Assembly (NCBI GenBank): GCA_013112585.1
Contig: JABFGH010000037.1
Location: forward strand, 1 to 38,142
Length of the DNA: 38,142 nucleotides
Direction: 5' to 3'
Source: Ignavibacteriota bacterium
GTDB taxonomy: Bacteria; Bacteroidota; Ignavibacteria; Ignavibacteriales; Melioribacteraceae
Part shown: piece by piece, positions 7,482 to 20,792 of the stretch
Position numbering within the stretch: the stretch's first letter is position 1
Layout of the letters: every line of letters begins with the position of its first letter
Position numbers and translations under genes: made by a program
The notes under the pieces: generated by a model
The model's database searches: none
The model's input: the letters and a program-made list of their open reading frames with translations, nothing else
What the model was told of the DNA's origin: nothing

Positions 7482-8546
7482 ATGAAAAAAACAAATATGG
7501 GAGTAGGTTTAATATTTGTGTTGTTGTTTATTTCATCAGTAACACATTCCCAAAATCTTATTGTAGGTACCAAAATTGCGGAACCATTTGTTGTAAAAGA
7601 AGCAAATGGTAAATGGTCAGGGGTTTCATTTGAATTGTGGAATGAAATTGCCGATGAAATGAATGTTGAATACACAATTAAGCAATACGACTTGGAAGGT
7701 TTGATTGATGCGGTTTCAAAAGGTGAGGTAGATATTGGTGTTTCTCCTTTAACCATAACTGCCGATCGTGAAAAGATATTTGATTTTTCTCATCCTTATT
7801 ATATAACCGGGTTAGCAATTGCTGTTCCGGCAAAAGATGAGGGTGGTGTTTTTTCTGTTATCGGCAGATTTCTTTCAACAGAATTTTTAGGAACTCTATT
7901 AATACTTCTTTCTATTTTAGGCGGTGTTGGAGCTTTAGCTTGGTTTTTTGAAAGAAGAAGAAACAAAGAAGATTTTGGAGGAAGCACTGCAGAGGGTTTA
8001 TTTTCAGGAGTTTGGTGGGCTGCTGTTACTATGACAACGGTTGGATATGGTGATAAGGCTCCGAAAACTGTTGGCGGAAGAATTGTTGGTCTAATTTGGA
8101 TGTTCGCCGCTTTGATAATAATTTCCGGTATTACCGCCGCAATAACATCGGCATTAACTGTAAAGCAGCTCGATTCACAAATTCAGGGTTTAAATGATCT
8201 GCGCCGTGCTAATGTTGGAAGTGTTAACGGTTCTTCGAGCGAAGAATTTTTAAGAGGAGAAAAATTGGTTAGCAAACTTTTTGATAAGCCGATTGATGCA
8301 GTGAACGCTTTAGCAAAAGGCAAAATTGATGCCGTTGTTTATGATGCCCCGATTTTAAAGTATCTTATTAAATCACAAAACTTGAATAAAAAAATAAAAG
8401 TACTGCCTTCAAATCTGCAGCCGCAGCATTATGGATTTTCATTACCGAGCGGAAGTAAAATAAGGGAAAAAGTTAATCAGATACTTCTTGAAAAAACTAA
8501 TGAAAGCCAATGGCAGGATGTAATTTTTAATTATTTTGGCGATTGA
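7482..8546 (+). CDS. Glutamate-receptor-like ligand-gated K+ channel
   Basis: This 354-residue protein has a signal peptide (1-23), then a periplasmic amino-acid-binding domain of the SBP_bac_3 family split by a two-helix ion-channel pore. Lobe 1 spans about 25-118 and includes R96 in TADREKIFDFSHPYY, the arginine that binds the ligand carboxylate in this family. The pore has a helix at about 135-156, a pore loop with the K+ filter TTVGYGD (185-191) and a second helix at about 200-225. Lobe 2 (about 240-354) holds NGSSSEEF and D288 in VVYDAPI, which matches the amino-group ligand. This is the layout of GluR0-type prokaryotic ionotropic receptors. The likely role is K+ flux gated by an extracellular amino acid; the ligand itself is unknown. 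Confidence 0.9.
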   Translation: MKKTNMGVGLIFVLLFISSVTHSQNLIVGTKIAEPFVVKEANGKWSGVSFELWNEIADEMNVEYTIKQYDLEGLIDAVSKGEVDIGVSPLTITADREKIFDFSHPYYITGLAIAVPAKDEGGVFSVIGRFLSTEFLGTLLILLSILGGVGALAWFFERRRNKEDFGGSTAEGLFSGVWWAAVTMTTVGYGDKAPKTVGGRIVGLIWMFAALIIISGITAAITSALTVKQLDSQIQGLNDLRRANVGSVNGSSSEEFLRGEKLVSKLFDKPIDAVNALAKGKIDAVVYDAPILKYLIKSQNLNKKIKVLPSNLQPQHYGFSLPSGSKIREKVNQILLEKTNESQWQDVIFNYFGD

Positions 8547-8607
8547 AGATTTAATTTAATGTGATGTAAAAAAATATTTAGAGTAATTATTTCTTAATAA
8601 CAAATTG

Positions 8608-8649
8608 CCGCGACCTTTTCCGAAGGAATCACTATGTGACAGGTCGTGG
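8608..8649. repeat. Palindrome module A, left copy, interrupted
   Basis: The arms CCGCGACCT (8608-8616) and AGGTCGTGG (8641-8649) pair with one G-T wobble. The same palindrome at 9485-9504 has a two-base loop, so here 24 bases separate the arms where the other copy has two. Confidence 0.7.
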
Positions 8650-8670
8650 AAGGATGACCCCACCCAAACC

Positions 8671-8741
8671 GGCTTTAGCCGAAATGGAAGCTATCATTGG
8701 GCTAAAACCTCAATTTAGTTTTTGTATAAATCCCCCGGCAT
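8671..8741. repeat. Palindrome modules B and half of C, left copy
   Basis: TTTAGCC (8674-8680) pairs with GGCTAAA (8700-8706); an ATGG and a CATTGGGCTAAA track are shared with 9350-9386. Then CCCCGGCAT (8733-8741) matches the left arm of the complete hairpin at 9408-9427, but the right arm is missing. The order B then C is the same on both sides of the tandem array. Confidence 0.65.
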
Positions 8742-8788
8742 GATGACGCTGTGTGGAAGGTAGGAAATTAATTTTGATCGAAAAATAT

Positions 8789-9310
8789 TAACCAATGGTT
8801 TTAATCATTGGATTGTGAATGATAGCCAATTAAGTCATAACCCGTTCACGGGTTTGTTGCAATCAAAGAAGCCAGGAAATAAATCAGTAAACTGGTTAAT
8901 GATGTTGTCTTACCTTGTAATATCAACGGATAAATCCGTTGGTTAACAATTAATAAGAATTAGCAAATATGCATCCATTAACCAATGGTGTTAAACCATT
9001 GGATTGTGAAAAGCTACCCAAGAAGTCAAAACCCGTTCACGGGTTTTTGCAATGTAGAATCTAGGAAATAAACCAGTAAACTGGTTAATGCTGCTGTCTT
9101 GCCTTGTAATACCAACGGATAAATCCGTTGGTTAACAATTAATAAGAATTAGCAAATATGTATCTATTAACCAATGGTTTTAACCATTGGATTGAGAAAA
9201 GCTACCCCAAAAGTCATAACCCGTTCACGGGTTTGCTGCAATCAAAGAAGCCAGGAAATAAACCAGTAAACTGGTTAATGATGTTGTCTTACCTTTTAAT
9301 TCCAACGGAT
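8789..9310. repeat. Three tandem ~190-base units, each with four hairpins
   Basis: Units start at 8789, 8979 and 9168 (periods 190 and 189); the third stops at about 9310, inside its last palindrome. In unit 1 the palindromes are at 8792-8811 (CCAATGG...CATTGG), 8839-8854 (AACCCG-TTCA-CGGGTT), 8882-8897 (AATCAG-TAAA-CTGGTT) and 8923-8942 (TCAACGGA-TAAA-TCCGTTGG). Units 2 and 3 repeat the same order. The spacers (GAAATAAACCAG context, TGTCTTACCTTGTAAT, TTAACAATTAATAAGAATTAG) are also conserved. Differences in the stems of unit 1 keep pairing through G-T. The block lies where two genes end toward each other and has no reading frame of note. A role as REP-like mobile palindromes or as a structured transcript is inference. 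Confidence 0.9.
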
Positions 9311-9349
9311 GAAGAGGCTGCGGTATGATGAACATATGATTACATCCCA

Positions 9350-9386
9350 TTAGCCAAAATGGCTACAGTCATTGGGCTAAAGCCCC
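9350..9386. repeat. Palindrome module B, right copy
   Basis: TAGCC (9351-9355) pairs with GGCTA (9361-9365), and TTAGCC also pairs with GGGCTAA at 9374-9380, so two alternative stems are possible. It matches the left copy at 8671-8709 in sequence and order. Confidence 0.6.
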
Positions 9387-9407
9387 AAAATTTGGTTTTG
9401 CATAAGT

Positions 9408-9427
9408 CCCCGGCATAAATGCCGGGG
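9408..9427. repeat. Palindrome module C, complete hairpin
   Basis: CCCCGGCAT and ATGCCGGGG form a perfect nine-pair stem with a two-base AA loop. Only its left arm is present at 8733-8741. There is no T-tract after it, so it does not read as an intrinsic terminator for the plus strand. Confidence 0.7.
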
Positions 9428-9484
9428 CAATTGGATGATGTCAAAATTTGTAATTTGCATTTAAGTAATAGAGATTTTTAATTG

Positions 9485-9569
9485 CCACGACCTTCAGGTC
9501 GTGGAAGAGTAATGAAAAATATTAAATGGCTTTAGGCAAAATGGTGGTATCATGGGGCTGAAACTCCAA
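9485..9569. repeat. Palindrome module A plus degenerate module B
   Basis: CCACGACCT-TC-AGGTCGTGG (9485-9504) is a perfect nine-pair hairpin matching the interrupted copy at 8608-8649. A degenerate module B follows at 9526-9569 (ATGGCTTTAGG, then CATGGGGCTGAAACTCC). The remaining bases to 9629 show nothing else. Confidence 0.65.
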
Positions 9570-9629
9570 GTTTGTAAATGGCGGGCAATGAAATAAAATT
9601 CCACGAGGAATCATCTAAGCGTCTTCTAC

Positions 9630-10475
9630 TTAAAAATCAAAGAGCATGCTCAAAAAACTCTCACTCATTTTTTCAATAACATAATTTGCTTTTTCTTTTG
9701 TGATTGTATTTGGCGGACCCCAAGGAGTTTTATTTACATCAACAATGTAAATTTTGTTGTTTTCATTATCTCTTAAAATATCTAACTCACCATAATCCAA
9801 CCCCATTGCTTTACTAAAATTTAATATGCTTTCAACCTCGTTATCATTAAACACAGTGCTTGTCTGATGAACTTCAACGCGGTCAATTTCATTTGTAAAC
9901 CGCAGCTCTGTCGTTTTTATTTTGTAATAAACTAATGGTATATCATTCCCGATAATGGGTGCTCTTAAATCTCTTACAAAATTATCATCAATTTTATTAT
10001 CAATTAATTTTTGATATACAACATCCGGTTCCGCTTCCTTAATAGGACACTGAATAATTCGTCCGTCATGTTTTGCATTCTCATCAGATTTTACAACACA
10101 TTCTCCAATAAACTGTTTAGGATTTATTGAAAGATCATAACCGAAAACATTTTTAAAAACCGTATCAACCTTGTGCTTGCTGATATCTATGCATTCACTA
10201 TTCAAACTTCTGCTGTCTATCAAATTTGTGTTTTCAAACTTTGTGCTGTCATCCCAAAAAAAACTTATCTGCTTTTCACCCTTACTTGATCGGGCAATTC
10301 TAATTCCTAAATGTTTACAAATTTTATAAAGTATTGTTCTTTTATGCGGAAGGTTAGGATAGAAATAAATCTTTTTAATTTGATGATTAGGTTTTTTTCT
10401 TCTAAACCATGAAAAAATAAATGGAAGTTGATAACGGTAAATAATATTAAATCTATCTTCAATTTTCTTAATCAT
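9630..10475 (-). CDS. ATP-grasp-like protein of unknown function
   Basis: The ATG at 10475 gives 281 residues and overlaps the end of the upstream glycosyltransferase gene by eight bases; a TTG at 10484 is the other possible start. The C-terminal third looks like an ATP-grasp catalytic core: LDYGELDIL with E230, then IYIVDVNKTPWGPP with D246 and N248 in the place of the Mg-binding D/E-x-N, preceded by a strand rich in charged residues (RDLRAPIIG). The N-terminal 100 residues are basic and not recognised. Overlap with the glycosyltransferase implies translational coupling and a shared pathway, possibly a glycan or peptide-bond modification at the cell surface. The substrate and even the fold need confirmation. 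Confidence 0.6.
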   Translation of the reverse strand: MIKKIEDRFNIIYRYQLPFIFSWFRRKKPNHQIKKIYFYPNLPHKRTILYKICKHLGIRIARSSKGEKQISFFWDDSTKFENTNLIDSRSLNSECIDISKHKVDTVFKNVFGYDLSINPKQFIGECVVKSDENAKHDGRIIQCPIKEAEPDVVYQKLIDNKIDDNFVRDLRAPIIGNDIPLVYYKIKTTELRFTNEIDRVEVHQTSTVFNDNEVESILNFSKAMGLDYGELDILRDNENNKIYIVDVNKTPWGPPNTITKEKANYVIEKMSESFLSMLFDF

Positions 10476-11598
10476 TCTGTTCAATTAGTTCCATAAAAGT
10501 TTTTTCTAATTTTTTAGTCTGTTTACTTTCATTAAACATTTCTTCAACCCTTTTTTGCCCGGCAGCACCAAATTTAATTCTAAGTTCGGGATCAGAAATT
10601 AATTCGATAATAGCTTTTGAAAGTTCGCCCGGATTTTTTGCAGGTACTCTAAATCCTGTTTCCCCTTCAACAACAATATCAATAAGCCCATCGGTATTTG
10701 ATGATACAACTGGACGAGCTGCCGCCATTGCTTCAATAGCTGCATTGCCGAATGCCTCGGCATGAGAGGGAACAGCAATAATATCGGAAGCTGCAATTAG
10801 TTCGGGTATATCTTTTCGGAATCCGGTAAAAATTATTTTCTCACTATTTTTTAACTCGCCTGCTATTTTTTTAATTTGCTGTTCATATTGTTCTTCACCG
10901 TAACTTGCGCTGCCGACTACCCAAAAAACAACATCGCTTAATTCTTCTAAAATAATTTCCGCAGCATTTAAAAAATCTTCATGACCCTTACCCGGCGATA
11001 ATCTACCCATCAAACTTATTACGCAATGGTTTGGTGATGCGTTCATTGCCTCTCTAACTTCATTCCGCTTAATCAGTGCCGATTTATATTTATCAATTTT
11101 TATCCCGTTGTAATGAATCTTAACTTTCGATTTATCTATCGGGCATGTATCAATTACATTATTTTTTATTACCTGCGAGATTGCTAAAACTAAATTAACC
11201 CTTGAGTATAAATACTTGTGCAGAATATCTTTCTTCTTAATATATGAACCTACCCGTTTAGTCAATACAACCGGAACCTTGGATGATTTTTTTAATGCCG
11301 GAATTAGAAAGCGTAAGTCGCGTGAAAATTGAACATGTATTAGATCAAAACTATTTTTGCTTAGATACTTCTTCAACTTAAAAATCAGCAGGGGATGAAT
11401 TCCATTTCCAAAAGGTAAGGCAAAGCAGTCAAATCCTTCCGCTTCAGCTTCCTTGTGCAGTGAGCTATCGGGGTAGCATAACACAGTTATTTTATGTCCG
11501 AGTGCACGTAAGTCAATTGAGGTTTGCAGCACTCGCATTTCCATTCCGCCCCATGAGCGCGATGTACAAAATTCTAATATTTGCATTGGCTTAATCAT
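10468..11598 (-). CDS. GT4-family glycosyltransferase (GT-B fold)
   Basis: This roughly 376-residue protein is a retaining GT-B glycosyltransferase. The N-terminal Rossmann half opens with ILEFCTSRSWGGMEMRV, the glycine-rich loop typical of GT4. The C-terminal half carries MGRLSPGKGHEDFL, FTGFRKDIPEL and the EX7E motif in HAEAFGNAAIEAM, followed by RPVVSSNTDGLIDIV and GETGFRVPAKN. It should transfer a sugar from a nucleotide donor to a lipid- or polymer-bound acceptor at the cytoplasmic side of the membrane. An ATG at 11598 is chosen; a TTG at 11610 and an ATG at 11586 are alternatives. The gene ends inside the ATP-grasp-like gene start, so the two form an operon. Donor and acceptor are unknown. 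Confidence 0.9.
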   Translation of the reverse strand: MIKPMQILEFCTSRSWGGMEMRVLQTSIDLRALGHKITVLCYPDSSLHKEAEAEGFDCFALPFGNGIHPLLIFKLKKYLSKNSFDLIHVQFSRDLRFLIPALKKSSKVPVVLTKRVGSYIKKKDILHKYLYSRVNLVLAISQVIKNNVIDTCPIDKSKVKIHYNGIKIDKYKSALIKRNEVREAMNASPNHCVISLMGRLSPGKGHEDFLNAAEIILEELSDVVFWVVGSASYGEEQYEQQIKKIAGELKNSEKIIFTGFRKDIPELIAASDIIAVPSHAEAFGNAAIEAMAAARPVVSSNTDGLIDIVVEGETGFRVPAKNPGELSKAIIELISDPELRIKFGAAGQKRVEEMFNESKQTKKLEKTFMELIEQND

Positions 11599-20040: not shown

Positions 20041-20064
20041 TTGTCGAGGACCAATCCTCGACAA
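20041..20064. repeat. REP-like hairpin, left flank of RAYT
   Basis: TTGTCGAGGA and TCCTCGACAA form a ten-pair stem with a CCAA loop. It lies seven bases after the stop of the transposase gene and is the inverted partner of the hairpin at 20687-20708. Confidence 0.85.
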
Positions 20065-20070
20065 ATGAAA

Positions 20071-20625
20071 TTAAACTATTTCTACTCCACCCCATAAAGT
20101 ATCTACCGCAATTACCTTATGATCATTATGAGCATAATTTCTTGCACTCGAGTATTTATATTCCTCAGCTATTTCTACCATGCCGGCTTTTACTGGATTA
20201 TTATGAATGTATTTCAACTTAACCCAGAACATTTTATGATTTCGAATTACTTCATCATCAAAACGATGAATCCAAAACTGTCGTTTTTGTCCAGTCTTTA
20301 CATTTTTACTAAATGATTTTAGTAGTGCGGATTTCTCAGATTCCAATTGTTCTAAAATATCCCATGCCGTGTATTTCTTTATGTCTCTCATTATGTCAGA
20401 TATAGTTCCCTTTGAAGGCTCTGTTTTTACAATCCAATGAAAATGAGTTGGCATAATTACGTAACCGAGAATAATGAACTCACGCTTTTGCTGATAGTGT
20501 TTTATATTATTAAGCAGTATGTCACAGAAATCATATCTCTCAAATACCGGAATAAAACCTTTTACTGTGGTTGTTACAAAATAGAATTGCTCTTCACTGA
20601 ACAAACTTCTGTTTCTTAATCCCAT
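20071..20625 (-). CDS. REP-associated tyrosine transposase (RAYT, Y1/TnpA-like)
   Basis: This 184-residue protein belongs to the Y1 transposase superfamily that cuts single-stranded DNA. It has the HUH motif in MPTHFHWIVK (H61, H63) and a tyrosine in the conserved VKLKYIHNNPVKAGMV helix (Y139), which is the expected nucleophile. Other family signs are LGYVIMPTHFHW and SSARNYA. The catalytic residues appear intact. The gene is framed by two hairpins of nearly identical sequence in inverted orientation (20041-20064 and 20687-20708), the classical layout of a RAYT with its REP sequences. RAYTs are usually single-copy, domesticated enzymes that spread short palindromes rather than themselves. It sits between a secreted-protein gene and rpmH. 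Confidence 0.9.
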   Translation of the reverse strand: MGLRNRSLFSEEQFYFVTTTVKGFIPVFERYDFCDILLNNIKHYQQKREFIILGYVIMPTHFHWIVKTEPSKGTISDIMRDIKKYTAWDILEQLESEKSALLKSFSKNVKTGQKRQFWIHRFDDEVIRNHKMFWVKLKYIHNNPVKAGMVEIAEEYKYSSARNYAHNDHKVIAVDTLWGGVEIV

Positions 20626-20686
20626 GGTTTGATTTAAGTATTATTTGCAATTGGTGTGTGTTGAATTTACAAAATCATTCGTTTAT

Positions 20687-20708
20687 TGTCGAGGAATGGT
20701 CCTCGACA
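20687..20708. repeat. REP-like hairpin, right flank of RAYT
   Basis: TGTCGAGGA and TCCTCGACA form a nine-pair stem with an ATGG loop. Read on the minus strand the loop is CCAT, against CCAA in the left hairpin, so the two are inverted copies with one loop difference. It lies about 60 bases upstream of the transposase start. Confidence 0.85.
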
Positions 20709-20792
20709 CCCATGAAATGTGAGTTTGTACGAAAATTAAAGATTTTGCAGAAAACACAATAAATCAATTAATCAATTTTCACCTCAAAATGG

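Follow-up and report, generated by a model that had tools for sequence, protein, structure and literature searches.

Tandem four-hairpin units in an Ignavibacteriota genome, probably non-autonomous mobile elements associated with a Y---Q--HH transposase

INTRODUCTION

The hairpins at the two ends of IS200/IS605 insertion sequences are not known to be mutually inverted. The family is described as having no terminal inverted repeats, in the same account that describes REPs as inverted palindromes flanking a Y1 transposase gene, usually in more than 100 copies per genome (PMC2817692). Tandem clusters of REPINs were reported to repeat the element together with flanking sequence (PMC3116915), and the Marinomonas REP-Mb was reported to require T12, T13 and A15 in its loop, position 14 being free (PMC8266576).

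The Y1 transposases of subclass 1.2 (Quentin et al. 2018), which bear the signature Y---Q--HH, are entered as "REP: no" in Table 1 of the survey that described them; according to the same source typical terminal hairpins are generally absent, the role is left open and the automatic REP search demanded GTAG or GTGG (PMC6006769). In Caldithrix abyssi, the 18-nt palindrome aAACCGTTgaAACGGTTt was reported in 38 exact copies, mostly intergenic and likened to REPs, with a direction set by the central GA/TC; the strand that it prefers in one half of the chromosome is the opposite of that in the other half (PMC5317091). Among the papers listed in our literature search, which covered few subscription journals and no preprints, none tied subclass 1.2 to hairpins.

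Here we describe an array of hairpin units in a 38,142-nt stretch of DNA (hereafter the window) from an Ignavibacteriota bacterium, and compare it with these systems.

RESULTS

The array lies on contig C37 of a genome of 4.94 Mb in 77 contigs, where TRF detected a repeat with a period of 189, 2.8 copies and 87% matches at 8787-9310. It is intergenic, in a 1.08-kb gap between the ORFs 7482-8546(+) and 9630-10484(-). The product of the upstream ORF, 7482-8546(+), matches a solute-binding domain that spans a pore region (SBP_bac_3, Lig_chan and Ion_trans_2), as in prokaryotic glutamate-receptor-type channels.

Each unit carries four palindromes in the fixed order A, B, C and D, of 20, 16, 16 and 20 nt, so that both TRF and the hairpin positions bear out the original prediction of tandem units with four ordered palindromes. 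The stem of A is CCAATGGTT..AACCATTGG (in unit 2 the palindrome has 21 nt, with one additional base in the loop), B is AACCCGT-TC-ACGGGTT, C is AACCAGT-AA-ACTGGTT and D is CCAACGGAT-AA-ATCCGTTGG, the loops being TTCA in B and TAAA in C and D, as had been claimed. Unit 1 (8787-8946, plus strand; A 8792-8811 with loop TTTA, B 8839-8854 with TTCA, C 8882-8897 and D 8923-8942 with TAAA) is a gene-less element of what we call family 1, and is followed by linker 1 (8947-8976), unit 2 (8977-9135, plus strand; A 8982-9002, B 9030-9045, C 9071-9086, D 9112-9131), linker 2 (9136-9165) and unit 3 (9166-9310, plus strand; A 9171-9190, B 9218-9233, C 9261-9276), which breaks off within D at about 9310, as noticed before, leaving only 9302-9310 of this palindrome. 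A covariance model, R1, built from six units (five from this genome, units 1 and 2 among them, and one from genome G042), matched the three units at 8788-8946 (173.1 bits), 8978-9135 (162.6 bits) and 9167-9312 (138.8 bits), the last being outside the model. The fold of unit 2 surpassed those of 200 out of 200 shuffled sequences, with z -5.8 as DNA and z -4.6 as RNA.

The repeat, taken as a unit of 190 bases in the original prediction, proved to be an element of about 159 nt plus a linker of about 30 nt particular to this locus. When the linkers were compared, a few bases of overlap included, the two of the window were near-identical (z 10.2) and unlike those of the clusters on contigs C13 and C35 described below (z at most 0.8); the two linkers of C35 were alike, and those of C13 only partly so (z 2.1-5.8). 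Linkers alike within the window and within C35 and differing between loci suggest that these two arrays grew locally after a first copy had arrived.

The array is only one part of a mosaic that extends over 8547-9629, in which palindromes of another family, family 2, are found on either side of it. A doublet at 9372-9432 (plus strand, 74.8 bits) consists of a short hairpin with loop TAAA and the long hairpin CCCCGGCAT-AA-ATGCCGGGG followed by CAATT, and another at 9480-9540, in the opposite orientation (minus strand, 45.7 bits), has an imperfect short hairpin and the long hairpin CCACGACCT-TC-AGGTCGTGG at 9485-9504. Upstream of the array there are a decayed copy at 8671-8741 (plus strand; 78% identity over 8675-8741) and, at about 8608-8649, what is left of a hairpin of the CCACGACCT type.

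Further copies, whose search the original prediction had proposed, were present in the same genome and in others. A nucleotide search of the genome with unit 2 gave strong additional matches at C13 and C35 only. On C13 the units lie on both sides of a gene for a Y1 transposase of 144 aa (L003:1423-1857, minus strand) in the order, on the gene strand, D, A-B-C-D, A-[gene]-C-D, A-B-C-D; it is thus a tandem array in which one member has the gene in place of B, and the gene-less units of this genome outnumber the gene-bearing copy. C35 carries two units in tandem, one partial and the other almost whole (with a decayed C stem), followed by a palindrome A split by a 144-nt insert (L013:1717-1860) with AGAGGCTGTGTGAAAAT-like inverted ends. 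Another copy of the insert was found on contig C12 (95% over 91 nt), in a search whose listed matches included none in the window. The break-off points of the window array and of C35 have AGAGGCTG in common.

With R1, six strong units (139-178 bits) were found in the 4.9 Mb of this genome, all in three clusters (150 of 1946 candidates scored), and five of them are themselves part of the model; recent spread of family 1 in this genome is thus not evident. Below them there were 56 rows at 22-58 bits, in some cases two for one locus, hit on either strand; the highest-scoring row was part of the gene-bearing copy of C13. None of the 19 own-genome copies examined for ORF overlap (16 doublets and three units) and none of the eight units from genome G072 overlapped an ORF of at least 100 aa.

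The C13 protein matched Y1_Tnp (84 bits vs 23) and the NCBIfam model transpos_IS200 (IS200/IS605 transposase) at 61.1 against a cut-off of 55, and scored under the cut-off of the RAYT model NF047646 (30.8 vs 80). Its motifs DHVH and YILNQEEHH include the Y---Q--HH signature; with regard to the subclass 1.2 motifs DH[IV]H and WQ, it has DHVH and WS for WQ, and the C24 protein has DHIH and WQ. The predicted structure of a homologue, L129 (78% identical to C13; mean pLDDT 85), matched by Foldseek the TnpA proteins of ISDra2 and IS608 (E 3e-9 to 1e-7, TM about 0.6) and more weakly TnpA-REP 4er8 (4e-5), so that the Y1_Tnp match and the homologue model point to the TnpA fold with HUH and a single Tyr. 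Homologues were found in 143 of the 196 genomes searched, our own included. The signature was present in 170 of 173 collected loci, C13 included, which comprised four own loci, L040-L128 (29 automatic and 60 chosen among the matches listed) and L129-L208 (80 kept of 121 relatives), with three duplicates. A protein tree of the tnpA branches gave no resolved placement and was left out of the argument.

R1 matches (E 0.01) were obtained in 85 of the 156 genomes searched (G000-G155, our own included). No genome of the same genus turned up among the relatives. A C13-like tnpA (E 1e-45 or better) was present in 24 genomes, and 16 of these had ten or more R1 matches; of the 131 others, 13 did so, G044 and G054 among them (p 1e-8). 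This co-occurrence is indicative only, because the threshold was set after viewing the list, the genomes were counted by eye and the best 19 candidates per genome were scored.

In order to describe the flanks of the tnpA genes, perfect hairpins with arms of at least 7 and loops of 2-3 were scanned within 250 nt of tnpA. At least 120 nt were available on each side at 167 loci, 95 of which (with three duplicates) were closest to the C13 or C25 protein. A hairpin was present on at least one side in 92 of these 95 and on both sides in 69. The mean number of hairpins per locus was 3.4 for the C13 type and 2.8 for the C25 type, whereas dinucleotide shuffles gave 0.055 and 0.052, respectively, and control windows 700 nt off gave 0.05-0.07 per 250 nt. 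These hairpins follow an orientation rule, TTYA loops being upstream of tnpA and TRAA loops downstream: among 98 non-redundant loci, the nearest upstream/downstream hairpins were TY/RA in 48, RA/TY in one, TY/TY in three and RA/RA in two, the remaining 44 having at least one side without a classed hairpin (nine on both). The base preceding the loop was T in 205 out of 205 cases. With looser stems (arm 6), the 92 C13/C25-type loci with enough flank had TY upstream in 72 (RA in 19) and RA downstream in 64 (TY in 21), and the rule was followed on both sides in 53 and reversed in seven; some opposite-class hairpins belong to adjoining tandem units, as at C13. Only 16 of the 92 had at least two hairpins per side with the expected loop class. 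A mechanical descriptor of four hairpins found six quadruples in the 98 loci, four in the expected order, these low numbers being due to its acceptance of perfect hairpins only, and only when they directly follow one another; its single quadruple in the window was shifted, and it missed the units.

The ends are inverted, with the terminal repeat TTAACCAAYGG / CCRTTGGTTAA. With the hairpins oriented by their TTYA loop, conservation was higher over the five bases preceding the long hairpin than over those on its 3' side. In the C13 type this foot was ATTAA before CC, with 0.29-1.04 bits vs 0.14-0.32 on the 3' side (111 hairpins with arms of at least 8, some of them short hairpins lengthened by chance), and in the C25 type AAT[A/T][G/A] before CC, with 0.60-1.32 vs 0.18-0.41 bits (120 hairpins); as the foot sequences are related, the bits overstate their independence. 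A GTAG/GTGG foot was absent from the hairpins of both types. The TTYA strand fits the T-T-N-A loop of Marinomonas REP-Mb, so that foot and loop would mark the same strand as the processed one; by this analogy the TTYA strand is presumably the strand processed.

In a second branch, whose proteins resemble those of C1 and C24, the same scan found little (any hairpin in 12 of 72 loci). Nine flanks were read first, and then 70 loci from Chryseobacterium, Flavobacterium and others, including these nine and leaving out both genes of our own genome, were counted with controls. The hairpin of this branch, mostly of 5 bp with the loop GTA and followed by GACCTGTT (at most one mismatch), was upstream in 55, its inverted form downstream in 54 and both in 51 of the 70, many of which are close Chryseobacterium relatives and thus not independent. 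Hairpins in the opposite orientation numbered two and three, and windows 700 nt off had none (0/68). These counts indicate that inverted hairpin ends go with both groups of Y---Q--HH proteins, their form differing.

Gene-less copies are dispersed in the relative G072, where we found eight A-B-C-D units on seven contigs, kept from TTAACC to GGTTAA; among the eight no flanks in common were seen and nothing was conserved past the unit ends. They were found with the structure model, which is biased towards pairing, a bias answered in part by a search with sequence only that gave 10 matches (six to most of the unit, four partial) touching all eight. RNAalifold on the eight G072 and five own units folded exactly four hairpins, and 12 of 28 pairs showed double changes. 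Family-1 double-change cells numbered 39 vs a shuffle mean of 13.6, which no shuffle out of 500 reached, and slid controls gave at most five; a weaker measure, the number of pair types, was 19 compared with 17.1 in the shuffles, 35 of the 500 attaining that value. The covariation expected of a folded nucleic acid under selection was thus found in homologues, and it is these compensatory changes that sustain that part of the original prediction. The three stem changes in unit 1 (8805, 8884 and 8923), from which it had been argued, are real and each gives G-T, but as evidence of selection they are weak: all three are C-to-T within a palindrome, a change that, whatever its cause, must produce a G-T pair here and an A-C pair on the complementary strand, and alone they prove nothing. 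In G054 several copies were alike past the right end, and in the closed genome G043 the unit query gave five matches only.

Y1_Tnp matches in our genome numbered eight. Four short tnpA genes (C13, C24, C1 and C25) each lie among short-loop hairpins of their own; they are not near-identical, the nearest to C13 among the matches listed being 46% identical. Family-2 doublets resemble the hairpins beside the C25 tnpA; the model matched at least 78 of them without overlap, in 52 places distributed over 26 contigs, a lower bound since 150 of 6371 first-look candidates were scored; some may travel inside larger repeats. The long stem of 16 doublets had compensated substitutions, with 13 double-change cells (reached by none of 500 shuffles); the pairs with a double change, a weaker measure, were three vs 1.9 in shuffles (reached by 30 of 500). 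At the C24 (L002) and C1 (L004) tnpA genes we observed several hairpins that differ from one another, all with loops of 3 nt (CTATGGAT, GAACTAC, CAACTAC and CCCCGAAT), in sets that recur around the genes and combine opposite loop classes within one set. The window also contains a RAYT gene (20071-20625, minus strand; NF047646 118.4 bits vs a cut-off of 80), 11 kb from the array, with TTGTCGAGGA-type hairpins with 4-nt loops on either side (20041-20064 and 20686-20709); a further Y1 gene, on contig C9 (L008), lies among hairpins like these.

DISCUSSION

We take the window array to be a tandem cluster of three non-autonomous mobile elements of the single-strand type (REPIN/MITE-like), moved by a TnpA mechanism, and put the probability of this reading at about 0.8. 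The association with tnpA and the anatomy are its strong points, and of the three options in the original prediction, a REP-like cluster, a structured RNA and a recombination substrate, it is the REP-like one that is upheld, by the own-genome units that flank a Y1 transposase and by the dispersed copies in another genome. The mobiliser was probably the C13-borne transposase. A unit would represent the joined ends of an IS200-like element without its gene: the left end would be a long and a short hairpin with TTYA loops and the right end a short and a long one with TRAA loops, which makes the ends mutually inverted, and the full element may be read as long-short-[tnpA]-short-long, the related tnpA here being that on C13. 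On a strand left single at the replication fork, a TnpA dimer (HUH and one Tyr), if active at present, would bind the TTYA-loop hairpins; the unpaired stretch that precedes the long hairpin on its 5' side (TTAA here) may serve as a guide, judging from its conservation in related sequences, and TnpA would cut and rejoin, copying or moving the element to another intergenic site. Later, slippage, unequal recombination or abortive strand transfer would have duplicated the window copy in tandem, along with some 30 nt of the adjoining local sequence.

Another option of the original prediction was a structured non-coding RNA, beside which we considered an element at the 3' end of an mRNA; in either case each repeat, with its four hairpins, would be kept for its RNA. 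The stems covary, unit 2 has a marked RNA fold (z -4.6) and terminator-like sites numbered five vs a shuffle mean of 1.1, four of them on the minus strand. However, Rfam gave no match on the array (one sub-threshold match at 9326-9518, 19.4 vs 55 bits), promoter-like sites were at chance (4 vs 4.5), and 9-bp hairpins near tnpA with a single mismatch showed no clear G-U bias, with 27 G-T, 20 A-C and 57 transversions beside 225 perfect hairpins (p 0.38 for G-T against A-C; at the inner positions these numbered 17 and 9, p 0.17). The units moreover bracket a transposase and are dispersed, and the left-right inversion of loop and foot about tnpA would be needless for an RNA; with Rfam, wobble count and promoter scan all unsupportive, this reading was dropped as highly unlikely. 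The hairpins might instead be incidental, the array being cargo or body of a MITE of a DDE transposase, as copies in G044 could indicate. From this genome 18 dispersed four-hairpin units were fetched (L266-L283), eight of them with an exact arm of an extra TIR, CAATGYTGTCAACTT, and several copies end in CAATGYTGTCAACTT..AAGTTGACARCATTG, which we read as a DDE-type end. The extra TIR suggests a different mobiliser in G044, where the unit looks as though it had been taken over by a transposon of another family. The exact repeat occurred in nine of 300 loci, eight being G044 copies and one L070, and was missing from the window at up to two mismatches, whereas the G072 elements stop at TTAACC/GGTTAA with nothing conserved outside and the linkers of the own-genome clusters differ; we consequently dropped this explanation too, as a very unlikely one.

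Two further alternatives keep a Y1 protein at the centre. An ordinary REP/BIME cluster of the true RAYT of the window would profit from a gene over the NCBIfam cut-off 11 kb away, but the hairpins flanking that gene (TTGTCGAGGA..TCCTCGACAA) are unlike family 1, the units flank instead the C13 gene, itself below the RAYT cut-off, and the array family is without a GTAG foot. It was dropped for the difference in hairpins and is the least probable explanation of all. Domesticated binding sites, in clusters serving chromosome maintenance, termination or repair, with a TnpA that no longer transposes, would agree with the few copies, with the four short tnpA genes each having its own hairpins and with the low copy number noted for subclass 1.2 in its description (PMC6006769). 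The dispersed gene-less copies of G072 and the at least 78 family-2 doublets at 52 places point rather to past spread, and we consider domestication extremely unlikely, in favour of mobile elements moved by TnpA.

Beyond this locus, we would give even odds to a broader proposal, namely that the Y---Q--HH TnpA, reported to have neither REPs nor IS features, represents a third kind of Y1 single-strand mobile system, with inverted two-hairpin ends, gene-less units and half-element doublets spread in trans, a TTAA/ATWG-like guide instead of GTAG and a TTNA-marked strand. It would range from Ignavibacteria to Flavobacteria, where the hairpin has 5 bp and a GTA loop and is followed by a GACCTGTT tail, and would explain the strand-specific palindromes of Caldithrix. 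The transposases of this group are widespread, and their description leaves their role open (PMC6006769); they now gain a partner DNA element, and a testable recognition code, TTYA loop plus 5' foot, is offered. A REP search restricted to GTAG feet can overlook entire families.

The original prediction recognised no described family. This holds for Rfam, but the transposase group has been described (PMC6006769) and the short-hairpin type was reported in Caldithrix abyssi (PMC5317091). The short hairpins here are of the type reported there, with AACCGTT arms and a two-base centre (GA, TC, AA or TT) that sets the direction; in contrast to them, the Caldithrix aAACCGTTgaAACGGTTt copies are presented as lone 18-mers outside larger repeats, with no transposase tied in within that account (PMC5317091). 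The strand preference of the Caldithrix palindromes is what a single-strand mechanism predicts, and we infer that they are linked to the hairpin system described here, which suggests a possible explanation of their strand specificity.

The array resembles the REPIN, BIME and REPtron systems described in Pseudomonas, Stenotrophomonas and E. coli in its inverted palindromes around a Y1 gene and its intergenic gene-less copies, and REPINs in particular, as they have been described, in having two inverted hairpin modules per element and tandem clusters that take in flanks. As in REPs, the 5' foot is kept on one strand, and the loop is T-T-N-A as reported for Marinomonas REP-Mb (PMC8266576). Unlike REPs, the foot is TTAA (AAT[A/T]G in the C25 type) and not GT[AG]G, and there are two different hairpins per end; unlike REPtrons, the transposase bears Y---Q--HH and not Y---NP, and family-1 copies appear to be few (six strong units, 150 of 1946 candidates scored). 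With IS200/IS605 elements such as IS608 and ISDra2 it shares an HUH-Tyr TnpA of about 145 aa that matches Y1_Tnp and hairpins near the ends, but the ends are mutually inverted and doubled, and gene-less units exceed the gene-bearing copy; this inverted architecture with two hairpins per end stands between IS200/IS605 and REPINs. As in subclass 1.2 as published, the protein is short, occurs in Bacteroidetes and bears Y---Q--HH (170 of 173 loci), but in contrast to the absence of typical hairpins stated in that survey (PMC6006769), hairpins are the rule here. The element is ordinary in kind, REPIN/MITE-like; its partner, its foot and its four-hairpin inverted architecture are new.
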